This document shows, in pieces, positions 1 through 20,556 of a stretch of DNA of 64,000 nucleotides. The position numbers were made by a program, and so were the translations under genes. The notes under the pieces are model-generated. The model searched no databases. It was not told the DNA's origin and was given only the letters and a program-made list of their open reading frames with translations. Source of the stretch: Rhizomucor pusillus (Eukaryota > Mucoromycota > Mucoromycetes > Mucorales > Lichtheimiaceae); contig FWWN02000193.1 in assembly GCA_900175165.2 (NCBI GenBank), positions 1 to 64,000 on the forward strand. Reading direction: 5' to 3'. Within the stretch, counting starts at the first letter, position 1. Each line of letters starts with the position of its first letter.

Positions 1-169
1 TATCTACTTGCATCACGTTAGCTCGAGATTTCTCCGCAGGCTTCTTTTGCAAATACTGAGTATCAAGAGCAAATTGTTCCTGGTCAATGAAGTAGTCCAT
101 GGGTTCGGGTCTACCGTTCTCATCGACAATAATTCCTTGTCCATCTTCATATAAAAACTGAGCACCCAT
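1..169 (-). CDS. Unrecognised protein, N-terminal exon, cut by window edge
   Basis: On the minus strand an open frame begins at an ATG at 167-169 (MGAQFLYEDGQG) and runs without a stop to the window edge, about 56 codons. The peptide is acidic to mixed, with a DENGRPEPMDYF stretch and a basic QKKPAEKSR stretch, and reads like a normal soluble protein. I do not recognise the family. The start is the first ATG in this frame after in-frame non-coding sequence. It lies only 256 bp downstream of the decayed Fanzor on the same strand, so it could be the start of an ordinary gene or a second ORF of the same element; the sequence here cannot decide. Confidence 0.4.
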   Translation of the reverse strand, partial: MGAQFLYEDGQGIIVDENGRPEPMDYFIDQEQFALDTQYLQKKPAEKSRANVMQVD

Positions 170-425
170 GCTTGAAATTGTAAAGTAATGAAAAAGGGAA
201 CAGTGAGGGAATACAACTGCACCTAATATAAGAATTCCCAGCAACAACTTTTTTCTGCGACATTGAATTTCATTGGCTACGACATTACATTTTAAAAAAG
301 TTGTACATTGATGACTTTTTTATCCTGCAAAAAGTTTGCATCTATTTCATCTGCATTTCCTCGTATTGGAACTCGGTCAAGAAGTTTAAGGTAATGTACT
401 TTGCCGACAATTTGCGTTTGGAGCA

Positions 426-2740
426 TCAATTGCGGACGAAAGGTACAGGCCGTCCAAGACCTGACCAAATGCACATGGCAATATGGAACATATGTTTGGA
501 TGCATTAGTGTCTCGATTCCAGAGGGTCCCGCAGCTCTTGCAGACTTGGATCCCGTAGTGTTTGACACCGTCATCCGTGACAACATTCTGGAAAGTTCGA
601 GATAAGCATGTATGACATGTCTATCAAATACACTGTTTTCGCTTAGCATCTGCAGTCATGTGTTCGCCAATAATGATTTTACCTGTGTGGTCAAGTATTC
701 ATCGATTGTAACGACGACAACTTCATCGTTTGCTTCTCTTTTCTTGAGCTCTCTCCATAAAATATCTACTACATCCGATTGCAGACCTTTCTGGACACTC
801 TTTCCTTTCCAAACATCCCCGATCCAAAAACGATAAGTGGCATCTTTCCGTGATTATTGCAGTCAACTCTCGCCTTCCGCCACTGGTTTTCTTTGAATGG
901 TAGCTGTTCCTTTCCCATATAAAGCGTGTAACGGGCCGCTGAAATTGGTTGAGATGGTATTCTATTACAAGTGATCAGTGGCCAGGCCTCCGTTGATTAC
1001 GATTTTCAATTGCGTACCTTCTGCTGGATGTCCGCTTTTTTTTAAGCCTTTTACGATTCTTTCGAGCCTTTTTCTTTTCTCGTCTGTTCTTGTTCCTATT
1101 CTTCTTTTTAGTTTCCTTCTTTGCTTATTGTACTTGCAGCCGCCATTGATCAGTATGTCGGCTATTTCAGCCCTTGCTCGTTGCTTTTCTTGGTAGTCAC
1201 GGAATCGTTTGGCCGCTCTTCAATCGAAGTTGTAGAACTCGGGAAGAGTATCTAGGTGCCAAAAGTAATATGCGGCATATTGAAGGAACTGTTCGATGAC
1301 GACCTTTTTCCTGTTAAAAAATGTGATTCGCTATAGTCGATTCCTAGTCGCTTTGATCCTCTCAAGCTGTAATATTCACTTGTCGCAGTTTCTGATATCA
1401 TGCTCTTCACAACCGCAGTCGTAGGCCGCTGGGAAGACATCACGGCGATCGGGATCCACCGCGCATGAAAGGATGCTTGATAGCCATTAGTGGTGATTTG
1501 ATTTATGAACATGCAGCTTCCGTGGCTAATTTATCTTTAAGAACTATCTGTCACCCTCGAACTTTTGGCTGTGGACAACTTACTTGGAAACAGTTGCAAA
1601 AACTCAGGTGCGTTCGTTATCTGCTCTTGGAAGGCGCATGCCTAAGATGCGAGCCAACGTTGCTCCGTCTACGGTGACGAATCGCCCATGGTATGATGGC
1701 AGGGGCACGAACAAGGAAAGGCAAGGTAAAGTCCTGGTGTCCGATAATTGTTGGACCTGCTGTGCCAATTGATGCTCATAATTGTACTATTGCAGGATAT
1801 GGCACAGTGCAGTGGTACATGGGCGGGGCATGTAAGATACGAGTTCGCTCCAAACTTCTCGTATTGCGTTGCCAATTTCAAGACAGTGATTTTGAACCAG
1901 CAACCATCTCGTACGAGTAATCATTTGCAATTTTTGACGCCATATGTTTTTTTCATGCTCTACACACAGTACAAGATGGAGTGTAAGTAAAACTCTAAAT
2001 ACAAGATTACAAGTCTGTTCGTAAGATGCTTATTAGAACGAGCTTTTGCAATTTAAAGGCAATAAACTTCTCCATTCTGGACCGGAAGTACTCCACGACA
2101 ATGTTGCTGTAGCAGTCTTTTCAACACTTTACACGCGTGTGCAAGGTCTGCAGAGTAATGCTCTAAGTTATTTGAGCAGATAAACTATCGCTGGATATTG
2201 AAGCTTGATAGAAGCCCAAGTACTGTATCCATTATATTTCCAGACGTGTTTGAATTGTCATTAGTTATTGACTGTCCAAGGACAAGCTAAGCAATCAAAT
2301 ATAAGAACTGCTGTGCGAATATAAAAGTCGGAATGCCCTGGTCATCGTGTTGGATGATGTACACATCCACGAATAGCATGGCTCTGGAGACAACGTCGCC
2401 GCATGATTGTGACAGATTGCAAATGCCTTGCAATAATTGCCCACTGTATTCATCCCGAACGACATCCAGAAGAGGTACGGTCCAAGTATATCGTTCGGCA
2501 TTTTTCCAAAGCTTTCTACATACCTTCTTGCATTGATGGCACGTGATTGGGGCATTTTCCTGAGCTCGATTTCGAATGACTCGCTGATCCCACAACTAGG
2601 GCCTGGTTTTGTGTTGACTTCTTGTTTTGATATTCTCGCAGAATTCTCCCCTTCTTCTTTTGACCTGCTTCCTCGGCTGCTTCTGCTTCAGTACGCTTCC
2701 TCTTGCGCCCAACTGATTAGCTAATGTTATTACGAGCCAT
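426..2740 (-). pseudogene. Decayed Fanzor (eukaryotic TnpB-like RNA-guided nuclease)
   Basis: Minus-strand coding blocks in broken frames follow the order expected for a Fanzor/TnpB protein. The N-terminus (about 2740-2530) is basic and has a Cys/His-type SHSKSSSGKCPNHVP segment. A helical block with LLQGICNLSQSCGDVV lies at about 2590-2290. RuvC-I is AVDPDRRDVF, with its Asp codon at 1454-1456. A linker with RARAEIADILINGG lies near 1180-1140. Then come VVVVTIDEYLTTQ (about 720-683), a clean 62 nt GT-AG intron at 621-682, and a zinc ribbon CHTC...CKSC. RuvC-III is GTLWNRDTNASKH, with its Asp at 510-512, and the stop is at 426-428. Damage includes an in-frame TGA at 1220-1222 and several frame changes (near 1440, 1380-1310 and 840-800). 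DPxxRD, a DE-(Y/F)-x-T-(S/T) block, the paired CxxC and WNRDxNA are known Fanzor/TnpB marks. It is therefore a dead copy; family confidence is good, exact subgroup unknown. Confidence 0.8.
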
Positions 2741-3735
2741 GACAGAAGCTCCGACAATCATGCTCCCCTGTTTCTTTCTTCTGGTACAGACTACATTTTC
2801 TTGTTTCTTTCAGGACCGCGTTCGCCACAGTCTTTACAGAGATCTGCAAAAGCGTTGTATTAGCAAACCATCACTATATGTATGATCATTCTGCGTGACC
2901 TTGTTCTCGTTCTTTCTGCACCTTTTTCCATGCCCTTTTAAAAGGCAACAGCAGAAGTGGAGGGTAAAGCAATATGTCCAAAGAGATCAGCAAAACAAAA
3001 AGCAGTTCAATGAAAGGATATAAATCCAGTGAAGTATCGTTATCCATTTTGAAAAGTGAAGTAAGGAAGAGAAAGAAGCGTCAGATTTGGGATTATGCAA
3101 AGACAGAAAAATCAATTTTTTTACGGTTTACGACAACGAGTAGCCGACAATGAAACATCAGATAAGCTTTTTGAAACGCAAAACGTTGTACTATAAGAAA
3201 TACCGTTTCCTTCCATTCAAAGTATGTCGGACTGCCTGTAAGCTCACGTATAACTAACGTATTTTTCCCTATCTCTTTTGCATACGTCTTTTGAACCAGA
3301 GAATAACGAATAATACTCCGCAGAAAGAATTCATTGTGGAATTCCAGTAGATGCTTAGGTGAATAACCGGTTGTTAAGCAGTTAGCCTGAAAAAGCAAGG
3401 TCTTCCACTGTCGTCATTGGTTCACCCAGATCCCCCTGTGTAAATGCTTTATATCCGTGTAATTTATAATGTCCATAAGTCTTTTTCCAACTTTTGAATT
3501 TAAAAGCCATATGTAATGTCATAAAGGATTGTTCCGCACCTTTCAAACTTATCGACATTCAGCGATAAAAATTGGTATCTTCAAATATTATGTTTGTGCT
3601 GATGTACGTCAAACGAGGCAGACATACATTCGCATTTTTTGCATTTCCAGCCGTTAGCCGACCTGGGTATGTGATTCTTTAGAATGCACACGAATTTTGT
3701 CAAAATTACAAGAGCACTTTATCATTTTTCGATGT
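2741..3735. other. Gap with no supported gene
   Basis: This stretch lies between the Fanzor relic and the FMN-binding gene. It is AT-rich, and short frames on both strands lack splice logic, codon regularity or recognisable motifs. It may hold the 3' region of the FMN-binding gene on its right side. I see no repeat, RNA gene or terminal inverted repeat in it. Confidence 0.5.
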
Positions 3736-4643
3736 CTAATTCATCTTGTCCTTGACCCATTGTCCGTCTTTAATTCTATAGATTTCATGTGCACCAGTTG
3801 GGAGATCGACGTAATCCACCTGGTCCACTTGCACTAGCAAAAGTGCAAAGTTCGAGTACCCTTCGTCTAACAATGCCTGGTCCTTTCCGTTGACTGGCAT
3901 TCCTGTATGTGGATCCATATCATAAATTTCAAGCTGTGGTGGGCACGCCTTGGTAAACGTGGCTCGCAAGTGATCATTCATCCGGTACCACTGCCGCAGC
4001 CGCTCAGCTTCCCAGATCGACGCCCCTGTTTCCAGTTTTTTCCAAAATGCTCGCGTGGCGAGGCTAATGTTTTCCTGATGGGTAACTGGCTCCGGAATGT
4101 CTTTTTTAGGTGTAACCGCGCCATCCAATTCATCGTCTGGCGTATGCTCGTCCGTCACAGTGTAGACTTTGCCGGTAACGCGGAACTGTTCTTGCGTGCC
4201 GCCCATCCACCTGTAAAGAAAATGGCAAAAGGAGAATGGATGTTAGCATTTAGCGGAAGAAACATGGTAGTACATGGATGTGACAGTGACATGGAAAGCC
4301 AATTGCTTACCAACAAATTTCAGCGCTAGGATTTGCTGCGAGCTCACGCATTTTGTGTGAACGCTTTGCTGTTGTGATCGTCAGGATATCGCTTTCATAT
4401 CCAGTCTCTTCATCGTGACTCTCGCCTGCGAACCCTCTGTTTTGGAGCGCTATCGTCAGTGCGCATCCTCCCTGCGACGCTGCATAAATTCACAAACCTA
4501 AACACGACCATGCGGTTTGCAGCCGTCTTATCCGGTCTGACAGTGGCAAGCGAAACGTATGCTGCTGACGGACCAAGCTTCTCAATGTTGGCATTCAATT
4601 GCGTTGTAATGTGACTCTTCCATGGTGGAAAGATTCGCGACAT
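3736..4643 (-). CDS. FMN-binding split-barrel protein, pyridoxamine-phosphate-oxidase-like (Alr4036 type)
   Basis: Three exons (4498-4643, 4311-4436, 3736-4210) join in phase to give 248 residues. Introns are 61 nt (4437-4497) and 100 nt (4211-4310), both GT-AG. The N-terminus has PPWKSHITTQLNAN and then ATVRPDKTAANRMVVFRGF; the middle has KRSHKMRELAANPSAEICWW followed by EQFRVTG. This order (a flavin-binding beta barrel with R-VVFRGF, a KM-EL-NP-AE-CW helix/strand and QFR-(V/I)-G) matches the pyridoxamine 5'-phosphate oxidase Alr4036-like family. The family binds FMN; the substrate is generally unknown, so I do not claim vitamin B6 synthesis. The start MSRIFPPW gives the usual N-terminus; an in-frame ATG further upstream exists but adds a non-conserved leader. 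A cytosolic location is inferred from the absence of a signal peptide. Confidence 0.8.
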
Positions 4644-4812: not shown

Positions 4813-7800
4813 TTAATCGGTTTCCTCTGTAAAATGAAAGTAACCATGTATGAGTAATGCGCCAAACAAGAAGTAAATTGGCATATTTTTCCAACTTACC
4901 GGTATGATAACCGCTTCGTCTGTTGCGAGCAAGAAGGAGAAGCATGATTAATGATCCATTCTATCATGTAAGGACGTAGTATTACATACCGCATTTCGGC
5001 CAGGACGCGCCTGGCATTTGTAAGCTCTGCATCCAGCTTGAGAATCTTGACTTGCTGCTCCATTTCCCTCCGCTTGAACTCATGCACAGACAGCTTGTTG
5101 AAATCTTCTTCCAACGTTTCTCCCTTTTGTGCCACAAGACTCTTGACCTGTTTTACAAGCTCGGCTGCAGCGTCCTTGACAGACTTCGCAGCCAGTTCCA
5201 GACGCTCCTGGGTACGAGACATGAACGTAGATTTTACACGAGAAGCAGCAACAAGTTGGGCCGTTGCTGCTGAGACTTCGTTTGATGCGACAATTAGCTG
5301 CTCCAAGGAGTGAGTCTTGCTGATAACACCGTCAGCAGCTTCTACCAGAAGATTGGTGGCGACAGCAACTGCCTTGGCCGCAGAGATCAAACCTTCAGTC
5401 CAGCGATTGTGCTTCTTGTAGAAAGCAGCCTTGGATGAAGTGCCACGTCCCTGTGCTACGATCTCCTGCTGAGAGGCAGTAGCGCATTTAATAAGGTTCG
5501 CAATAGCACTAGTAAGTGCGAGTACAGAGTTAAGGATGAGCTGATGTACTTGAAGATCTGTGGCAGACAATTCGGGGTTGCTAGGTCGCTTCATCAAAGC
5601 TTGAATTTTGGCAGTTGCCTCCTCGATGGCTCTCGCTGCGTTGGACATTTCTTGTTCAACCAAATCACCAACTTCACCTTCTGCTAGCTTATTGATATCA
5701 GTTGCACCAGCAAGGATGAGATCTTCAGTCTTTTGAGACAACTTCGTCAAGGCTTCCTGGACTCGCATGTCGCCTTGGATGACTACTTCAGGACGCTGTG
5801 CGGGCGGAAGCATTTTCAGGTAGCTCGACATGACGCTGCTAAAGTATTGTATAGTGGCTTCAGCAGATTGTCTGGCCAGTTTTATGATTTCGTCAATATC
5901 CTCGTCTTGCAGCACAAGACGGGTGATTCCTTTGGCATGGAGGAGGACGTCAATGATGGTATCTGCAAACTCCAGCGCTCTAGTGATAGTAACAGTGTGA
6001 TCGCCTGTGTTGCTTCCGTCCAGGAATTTGCTGAATGCTGATAAGAACTCGACAGACATGATACTTGCACGTTCGATCATGGAAAGTGTCAACTCGGGAG
6101 TAGCATTCTCGTTACCATGCTGTCCAGGTGTCTCGAGCTCGTATACACCCTCGTTAATCTTTTGCACGCAAGTAGTGAGGATACTATCTGTAATATACGT
6201 TAGACTGCCTGACAACATAGCCCCGTTAAATCCTCTTCTAACTAACCAAGAATTTGGTTGAGTTTGTCGGTTTGCTGTGATTGCAGACGCTCATATTCTT
6301 CTTGCAAATCCGCTTGTCTGTCATTCTGAACATGCGGTCAGTGTACATGAATTTTCATACAGCTGGAAGCCGTTAGCTACTTGCCTGCTGAAGTTCAGCA
6401 AGTTGTTTGAGACATTCATCCATGCCTGCTTGCAAGACAGCAATTTCCTCATCTTTTTCCTATTTGAATGCTAGGTTACATATCATTGATGCATCGTGCA
6501 GTATCTGAAATTTAGCTTACATGACGGATACGGTCTGCATCGCCTTGTTGCTCCTCCAATTGCTTGAGAAACTCATCAATGAGAGCCTGCTTTTCAGCCA
6601 AACTCGCTTCTAGCTCGCCCTTTTCACGGTTGAAACGCGCCAGCAACGCGCTGACTTCTGCACCTTTAGATTTGCCCATATCTTGAGCTTGTGCTCGGGC
6701 CTCTGCGAGCTCTCGTTGCAAACGTTCCATATCGTCACGTTGATTCTATTCAAAGTATAAGCAACTATTAGTTATTGATTCACGTTCTAACTTACGCCTT
6801 GTAATCTGGCTAACTCGTTGCGAGCACGATCACGCTCACGAATAAGATCCGCTAATTCGATATTCTTTGCACGCATATCAGCTTCCATGCGTTCCAATTT
6901 TTCGGATGCTTCCTGTGCTGAGTTGGCCTTCACTTGCAGCTGTTTGTATTTGTTCAGCAATTCGATATGCTCCTTTCGAAGTTGGCTGTACAGTTTGGCA
7001 AGAGCCTCATATTTGTTCTTCCACATCTGAATCTCATCTGTCACATAATCAGTAAACCTTCCTGATATCCAATATCGTTCTGATATTTACTTTGCAGTGA
7101 TCGGATGAGTTCATCTTTTGATGCATCTCTTTGTTGGGCATGTGCATTCACTTGACTAAGTTCTTGTTCCAATGCTTTCACTCTCTATAGACAGTGGGAA
7201 GATATGATCTTAGCTTTGTATCAGTATTAGCATCCTCTTTGCAGCTTACTCTATCATACTGCTCCAAAAGCATCTGATCTCTCTCGATTTGGTTACGTTG
7301 TTGCAAGAGCTGCATTTCCAATTCGTTTATTCTTCCAGCTTGGTGGTTCTGCATCTGCTGTCTCAATAATTCTTCCTGCTGTTGACGTTCACGCTCAGCA
7401 AGTAGGCGTTGTTGTTCTTCAAATTCTCGTTGTTGCTGGAGCTGCAGCTGGCGCATGCGCTCTTGCTCTTCAGCTCGTTGCTGAGCCAAGCGGCGTTGCT
7501 CTTCTTCGTATTCACGCTGCTGCTGCGCCTGTTGCTGTGACCAGAAATCGATAACAGGTTCTGGCGATGGTTGAGCAGGTGGTGGAGTCGACTCTGCCAC
7601 CTGAGGACGTTTAGGTAATTTGGGAGTACTTGCTTCAATCAACGATGGTGGATCAGCGGGTAATTTGGGCACATTGATCAGACTCGTCAGATATTTGAGG
7701 TTAGAGCACTCGTAATAGAATTTCAGCAATGCATAATGCTGTTGGTTGTATCGCTGCCGTAACGGCTCAAGGGCATCCATAGCGCCGGTTCCTAGGGAGC

Positions 7801-20260: not shown

Positions 20261-20556
20261 GGAGGCAACTTGCTTATGCTTTACGGGTAAACACACGAAA
20301 AGACTTGTTCTTTATATGCAGCCCGTGGGAAAGTCCGAGAAAAGCCGTAATGCTCTTGCTGGGCAACTCGTGAAAACGGGTGTAGGGTACCAGAAACCAC
20401 TGTTCTGTGTGTACCGCTTGACCGACGATGGTTTCCATACCTAGGGAGGTGCCTCAGGACATTGAAAGCGCCCTACTGGTGTTTAGGCTATGCAGTGCAA
20501 TGCATAAGGCCGGTATAACCGGTAACTCAATTCGGATTACACTAGTTGCCTTCCAC
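20261..20556 (+). ncRNA. RNase P RNA (RPR1-like)
   Basis: The plus strand carries the conserved blocks of eukaryotic RNase P RNA in order. CR-I is GTGGGAAAGTCCGAG at 20325-20339. CR-IV is AGTGCAAT near 20491-20498. CR-V is AACTCAATTCGGATTAC at 20524-20540, closely matching the block near the human RNase P RNA 3' end. The ends pair as P1: GGAGGCAACT (20261-20270) with AGTTGCCTTCC (20544-20554), ten pairs with one bulge. TCCGA of CR-I also pairs with TCGGA of CR-V, the expected P4 helix. RNase P removes tRNA 5' leaders. No coding frame runs through here. RNase MRP RNA is a possible alternative but its 3' block differs. End positions are estimates from P1. Confidence 0.8.

Follow-up and report, generated by a model that had tools for sequence, protein, structure and literature searches.

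A decayed Fanzor1 gene in Rhizomucor pusillus and a candidate omegaRNA scaffold at the right ends of its sister copies

The first 64,000 nucleotides of contig FWWN02000193.1 of Rhizomucor pusillus (the window; C124:1-64000 in the genome searches) carry on the minus strand the remains of a Fanzor1 gene, which sequence comparison and structure modeling support as the decayed gene of a formerly mobile unit. In all likelihood the window copy is a dead copy of a mucoralean Fanzor1 element whose living form would be flanked by TA and carry at its right end a structured RNA used as a guide scaffold. It is a genuine Fanzor1 pseudogene, ordinary in kind. What the present analysis adds to an earlier note on this DNA is a map of the element, a well-supported candidate omegaRNA, and the correction that the window copy has lost the scaffold. 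The parts of the window copy are as follows.

2682..3108, minus strand: 5' region of the Fanzor element, preceding the Fanzor frame (blastn matches to the sister loci L035, L034, L029, and L033; whole-genome match over 2883-3108)
432..2681, minus strand: Fanzor1 pseudogene, from an N-terminal zinc-knuckle remnant to RuvC-III (colinear tblastn pieces of the proteins P0001-P0004, P0012-P0014, and P0019; eight related genome copies)
1433..1462, minus strand: RuvC-I motif AVDPDRRDVF with the Asp codon at 1456-1454 kept (direct reading; aligns with VDPGRRD of relatives)
1220..1222, minus strand: in-frame TGA stop (direct reading)
683..703, minus strand: DEYLTTQ motif, upstream of the zinc ribbon (direct reading; relatives have DEYLTSQ)
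621..682, minus strand: 62-nt GT..AG intron (the frame joins DEYLTTQ to TCHTCLSR; the models of P0002-P0004 are spliced there)
492..617, minus strand: zinc ribbon (CxxC pairs at 617-606 and 542-531) and RuvC-III motif LWNRDTNASKH (524-492) (Pfam Cas12f1-like_TNB at 22.8 bits, below the cut-off)
431..433, minus strand: deletion junction, at which ~300 bp are missing, comprising the C-terminal tail, the 3' untranslated region (UTR), and almost the whole candidate omegaRNA scaffold (comparison with L029)
397..431, minus strand: remaining right end of the element, ending ...AAAGTA, with the TA at 398-397 as the presumed target-site copy (matches sister right ends)

The RuvC-I aspartate, the CxxC zinc ribbon, and the NRD of RuvC-III are legible in the window copy as well as in its relatives, and every feature that the earlier note had named (AVDPDRRDVF, DEYLTTQ, the 62-nt intron, the CxxC pairs, LWNRDTNASKH, and the TGA at 1222-1220) is present on the minus strand. 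In tblastn searches of window positions 1-4500, the R. pusillus protein P0001 matched 1882-1154 with an E value of 2e-42, and the long relatives P0012, P0013, P0014, and P0019 gave colinear pieces between 2681 and 402, a degree of sequence similarity far beyond chance. Three of the four annotated R. pusillus relatives (P0002, P0003, and P0004) are spliced at the same place as the intron at 682-621, and P0001 reads into the intron. The reading frame is not intact: the previously noted stop and frame changes correspond to the TGA and to shifts around 2150-2119 and at 790-787, read from the P0001 alignment, and to these is added the 3' deletion at 433/431. The extent first given, 426-2740, does hold Fanzor remnants, but its upper limit falls short, since DNA homology to the sister elements runs to at least 3108.

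The genome search covered the 24.45-Mb assembly of 353 contigs. The TNB family had 28 genome matches, several of which clearly belonged to other Fanzor lineages. DNA-level relatives of the window copy were found on C104, C99, C155, C333, C20, C329, and C57, and a protein-level relative was found on C3; together these make up the eight related loci L029-L035 and L042. The earlier note had suggested looking for such copies, and their presence in the same genome agrees with its view of the gene as part of a formerly mobile unit. Three of the loci, L029, L034, and L042, have broken frames (all three frames were read), and the other sister loci appear as pieces in several frames. The best protein relatives of a sister copy were the four R. 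pusillus proteins; all motifs are present in P0014 (Mucor saturninus, 821 aa) and P0013 (789 aa), and a stretch in the middle is absent from P0019 (Rhizopus delemar, 756 aa). The loci L036-L041 and L043-L048 represent other Fanzor-type lineages with different zinc ribbons, such as DEYNTSKVCPRC, DEYLTSKICPKC, and DEYVTSQICPIC, and gave no match up to E 1 to the RNA covariance model described below.

Assignment to Fanzor1 depends on the sister copies and relatives. A family profile built from one sister-copy reading and six relatives, with the window sequence itself left out, matched SpuFz1 (1.1e-9) and GtFz1 (5.2e-6) in the PDB ahead of TranC (2.9e-4) and TnpB (7.8e-3). The fold of the relatives agreed with the profile and placed Fanzor1 first by a wide margin; in the structure model of P0014, confidence was low at residues 1-13, 30-91, 343-391, and 655-681 and in some shorter stretches. 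The profile search that had been proposed as a check thus ranks these two Fanzor1 proteins above TranC and TnpB, and profile and fold together bear out the TnpB-like, Fanzor identity. The zinc-ribbon read-through of L029 scored 42.2 bits in Pfam Cas12f1-like_TNB. Several points weigh against the assignment. The zinc-ribbon exon of the window alone reached 22.8 bits in Pfam TNB, against a curated cut-off of 26.3; its best PDB matches were ESCO2 (0.0022) and TranC (0.023), not Fanzor1; the C-terminal frame of L042 matched TranC only, at E 0.9; and the window blocks are insufficient by themselves. The TranC match of the exon, together with weak PADLOC matches of the relatives to Cas12 models at the zinc-ribbon end only, could be taken to mean that the blocks come from a different RuvC nuclease, Cas12f-like or of TnpB type, whose gene was recently acquired from bacteria, but given the introns, the mucoralean origin of the closest relatives, and the wide margin by which profile and fold favor Fanzor1, such an origin is highly improbable.

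The boundaries of the Fanzor1 element are defined by the sister copies. The left end common to five family-A copies (L029, L031, L033, L034, and L035) reads TACAGGTTT(T/C)TGACTTC, with unrelated DNA outside it, and four more left ends occur in L069-L072, the TA reading CA in L070. In subfamilies A-D, 14 right ends terminate precisely in CAGTA and 7 in a one-base variant of it (L029, L031, L033, L050, L058, L062, and L065), with unique DNA beyond; in L056, the stretch just before the end is lost and CAGTA is kept. The TA at both ends and the CAG-type termini fit a Tc1/mariner-type element, as judged from sequence. A Harbinger-like target duplication of three bases (TTA) was rejected, since GTA and not TTA stands at the right ends. 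Other observations count against so simple a map. In L032, L053, L055, and L059, divergence starts before CAGTA. The inverted repeats are short and imperfect and are all that the left and right ends share, so that of the terminal inverted repeats which the earlier note had expected at such ends, the TA-flanked ends were found and the repeats only in this reduced form. The element yielded no transposase, and no frame of >133 aa was seen in the 5' part of L035. Finally, the left terminus of the window copy is not recognizable, as the family-A 5' region gave no convincing alignment upstream of 3108: the first 60 bp, aligned at 3515, did no better than single-base shuffles, 64 of 200 of which equaled or exceeded them; the first 300 bp, aligned at the same position, were marginal (equaled or exceeded by 5 of 200 shuffles); and 1300 bp aligned at 3708-3239 without significance (24 of 200 shuffles).

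The genome has 161 DDE_3 matches. In L074 (C46:53830-54600), the first 600 bp of the Fanzor element, in a truncated copy, are followed immediately by a DDE_Tnp_4-like frame at 85-438 on the plus strand. This frame scored 16.7 bits, which is under the cut-off, and none like it was seen in L034 or L035; it could be either a chance neighbor or an autonomous form. In L059, L065, and L066, only the right end of the element matched in blastn comparisons with L034 and L042, which recalls the ghost elements of Spizellomyces; of these stretches, L059 and L066 matched the RNA model at 66-67 bits and L065 did not.

Just upstream of the right ends lies a conserved region of about 170-190 nt with four nested helices, which, from its sequence and predicted fold, is a well-supported candidate for the omegaRNA scaffold and very probably served as one. 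The alignment comprised 16 right-end sequences of the four subfamilies; L032, L053, L054, L056, L058, L059, L061, L065, and L066 were left out as truncated, deleted, or not yet recognized, as were L067, which is near-identical to L068, and the window copy, in which the region is deleted. RNAalifold predicted 39 pairs, 11 of them with two-sided changes. In the 29 pairs of the four nested helices, to which the covariation count was restricted, 95.8% of 456 cells pair, versus 30.9-41.2% when the pairs are slid by 1-3 columns. Cells with a two-sided change numbered 26, versus 9.5 in shuffles, and the covariation score was 0.253, versus 0.169. The 16 trimmed sequences had z values of -2 or lower in 14 cases, with 13 to 28 consensus pairs in the minimum-energy fold; these full-length folds supersede earlier single-strand folds of pieces without the outer arms, which had given mixed z values of -0.31 to -3.85. 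The covariance model built from the 16 sequences recognized the structured region in 25 of 40 loci at 65 bits or more, which answers to the conserved scaffold that the earlier note had expected at aligned 3' ends. Nine of the 25 were outside the training set, most originally picked by similarity to the same region; L061, picked by similarity around the stop codon, nevertheless scored 119 bits. No match up to E 1 was found in Rfam for the scaffold region of L042 or L029.

Conservation also peaks in this region. In 60-bp blocks of L029 4601-5863 compared with L050 (subfamily B), each block of the coding part had 26 to 44 identical positions out of at most 60, and the three full blocks at the end gave 44/59, 50/60, and 46/60. 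The corresponding blocks gave 45/58, 52/60, and 47/60 with L042, and with L055 (subfamily C) only the last full block, 49/60, stood out. These identities use L050, L042, and L055 only, as L052 could not be aligned with L029 ahead of position 5201.

The covariation evidence has weaknesses that must be set against the RNA reading. Two of the five measures failed to exceed the shuffles, namely, the number of pairs with a two-sided change (6 versus 4.5; 83 of 500 shuffles) and the number of further pair types (18 versus 19.4; 494 of 500). Most two-sided changes separate clade D from the other subfamilies, and independent pair-change events are therefore few. The folds of L031 (z -0.36) and L068 (z -1.37) are weak. 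The region might accordingly be considered a DNA element for a transposase, with subterminal binding sites or a cruciform, since it adjoins the transposon end in a layout close to an inverted repeat and in some truncated copies the match is confined to roughly the final 57-190 bp. We regard this as unlikely, because the left end lacks the region and has only the short imperfect repeat in common, and because the helices are rich in G-U pairs (e.g., UG:6, GU:5, and GU:4), as expected of RNA rather than of a DNA hairpin. An 88-aa open frame in L042 suggested instead a C-terminal exon or the tail of a second small gene; its translation had 21 genome matches, 6 of them (including that on C104) free of stops. 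This frame looked promising and failed the coding tests: the other 15 matches contain stops, third codon positions show no excess of substitutions, most gaps span a single base, each of the 16 sequences has at least one stop in every forward frame, and the annotated relatives P0002 (ending ...NVGP) and P0004 (ending ...NAGPGWV) terminate upstream of the region. On the reverse strand, 3 of the 16 sequences (L049, L051, and L068) have one stop-free frame. A coding origin is thus very unlikely, and the region is best regarded as a candidate omegaRNA scaffold.

The window copy has lost this region. Between GTCCG of the FVR codons and AATTGATGCTCC lie 301 bp in L029 and 1 bp in the window (433/431), where just the terminal 35 bp of the element survive (431-397). 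Among L029-L034, the six sister loci of this group that have a Fanzor 3' end, the scaffold is lost in L030 and kept in the other five. The earlier note had placed the guide RNA at about 170-426, the expected side of the gene, but the chance that it lies there is as good as nil: some 300 bp have been deleted, the element ends at ~397, the covariance model finds nothing there (its best match in the window, 13.2 bits, is at an unrelated place), the sister copies already contradict such a position, and positions 1-303 belong to a different transposon. The guide part can vanish while the protein motifs stay legible; therefore, protein remains alone do not reveal the location of the guide.

The different transposon begins at 303 (TACAACTTTTTT), a start read by eye.

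1..303, minus strand: separate Tc1/mariner-like element, cut by the contig start and outside the Fanzor unit (repeat family matching window 1-299)

This repeat family has over 30 genome matches, several of which adjoin DDE_3 transposase matches, for example on C74, C54, C198, and C120. Elsewhere in the window, two open frames (58 and 106 aa) with no Pfam match over the cut-off lie around the left part of the Fanzor element (3093-3558, minus strand); a 464-aa frame with an I/LWEQ domain (180.5 bits) is probably the end of a talin/Sla2-type actin-binding gene (4896-6290, minus strand); and a full-length Rfam match of 119.4 bits marks the nuclear RNase P RNA (20261-20553, plus strand).

The living element would be a TA-flanked DNA transposon of ~4 kb with one large, intron-containing Fanzor1 gene and a structured noncoding RNA of ~190 nt just upstream of its right end. 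By analogy with SpuFz1, a right-end transcript would carry the scaffold and, as guide, the first flanking bases beyond CAGTA; Fanzor1 would bind this RNA and cut DNA bearing a short motif, perhaps 5'-YTA, beside the guide match. After excision, the empty site would consist of the left flank and TA directly before the guide match, and cutting of this empty donor site would favor copying the element back. All 9 family-A left ends have C or T immediately ahead of the TA (which reads CA in one of them). On the right, the TA is followed by A or G in 7 of 17 ends drawn from all subfamilies, counted by eye with L067 and L068 taken as one and L033, L062, and L065, which have no TA, left out. This asymmetry, in a small sample with left ends from one subfamily, suggests a YTA-type target-adjacent motif rather than a symmetric TA-target transposase. 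What the sequences show is the protein family, the element boundaries of the sister copies, and the conserved structured region with its loss from the window copy; transcription, guide use, the motif, and the effect on mobility are inferred. The window copy can carry out none of these steps, because its protein frame and scaffold are both destroyed.

Between the stop codon and the scaffold of the sister copies, whose frames end at ...NVGP or a few codons later, lies a stretch with conserved ends. Its 5' side reads G|GTAAGC, GTATGT, or GTAGGT, and its 3' side reads CTTAG, GTTTAG, or CTTTAG, preceded by TACTAAT in subfamilies B (L042, L049, L050, L051, and L054), C, and D, by TACTCAT in L052, and by TATTGAT or TATTAAT in subfamily A. 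The interior is not alignable between subfamilies. The 5' part is deleted in L042, L053, L056, and L058, reads GGCATG in L050, and has lost two bases in L054 and L052; L064, L067, and L068 begin inside the stretch. From these motifs, the stretch looks like a spliceosomal intron in the 3' UTR. A second intron was considered from a second 5'-splice-like GTAAG beyond the first intron and was discarded, there being no fitting 3' site in subfamily D. It is conceivable, though doubtful, that mucoralean Fanzor1 elements have an unusually long, rod-shaped omegaRNA, split from the stop codon by a 3'-UTR intron whose splicing would link mRNA making to guide release. The word "intron" has 0 occurrences in PMC10432273, PMC10711439, PMC3627910, and PMC11423790; omegaRNA maturation tied to the spliceosome is not described in the parts of these four Fanzor papers that were covered, and no title or abstract start among the Fanzor literature matches listed concerns a 3'-UTR intron.

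Comparison with known systems draws on the covered parts of three of these papers. SpuFz1 of Spizellomyces punctatus has its omegaRNA scaffold in a conserved stretch of 75 nt that precedes the right end, and its guide in the 14-15 nt of flank that follow (PMC10432273). Both elements have a Fanzor1 protein, a transposon with inverted ends, a conserved noncoding region between stop codon and right end, and copies without the protein. They differ in the scaffold (75 nt in SpuFz1, ~190 nt here), the inverted repeats (30 nt versus short and imperfect), the base context on the left (a conserved CA before the left repeat versus C or T before TA), and the intron-like stretch between stop and scaffold found here (PMC10432273). 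GtFz1 of Guillardia theta shares the Fanzor1 fold and a long omegaRNA, 150 nt in its case, but its RNA has several stem loops instead of the one long predicted stack of four nested helices (PMC11423790). PpFz1 of Parasitella parasitica, also of the Mucorales, has a 75-nt omegaRNA (PMC11423790) and was absent from the 12 PDB sequences found by the family profile at E up to 1. The candidate described here is therefore longer than the 75-150-nt omegaRNAs of PpFz1, SpuFz1, and GtFz1. The Fanzor1 genes of Tc/mariner elements likewise occur in Fanzor-only units with TA target-site copies, and such families are listed for Mucor, Rhizopus, and Phycomyces in a species table of which the covered part does not include Rhizomucor; no guide RNA is described for them in the portion covered, and no transposase was found here to confirm the superfamily (PMC3627910).

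Few eukaryotic guide-RNA nucleases have a defined RNA. A scaffold that can be recognized from its sequence and structure across four subfamilies within a single fungal genome is a ready model for finding the RNA partner of an intact Mucorales Fanzor1, and, if the intron-like stretch is indeed spliced as supposed, maturation of a eukaryotic omegaRNA would be tied to the spliceosome.
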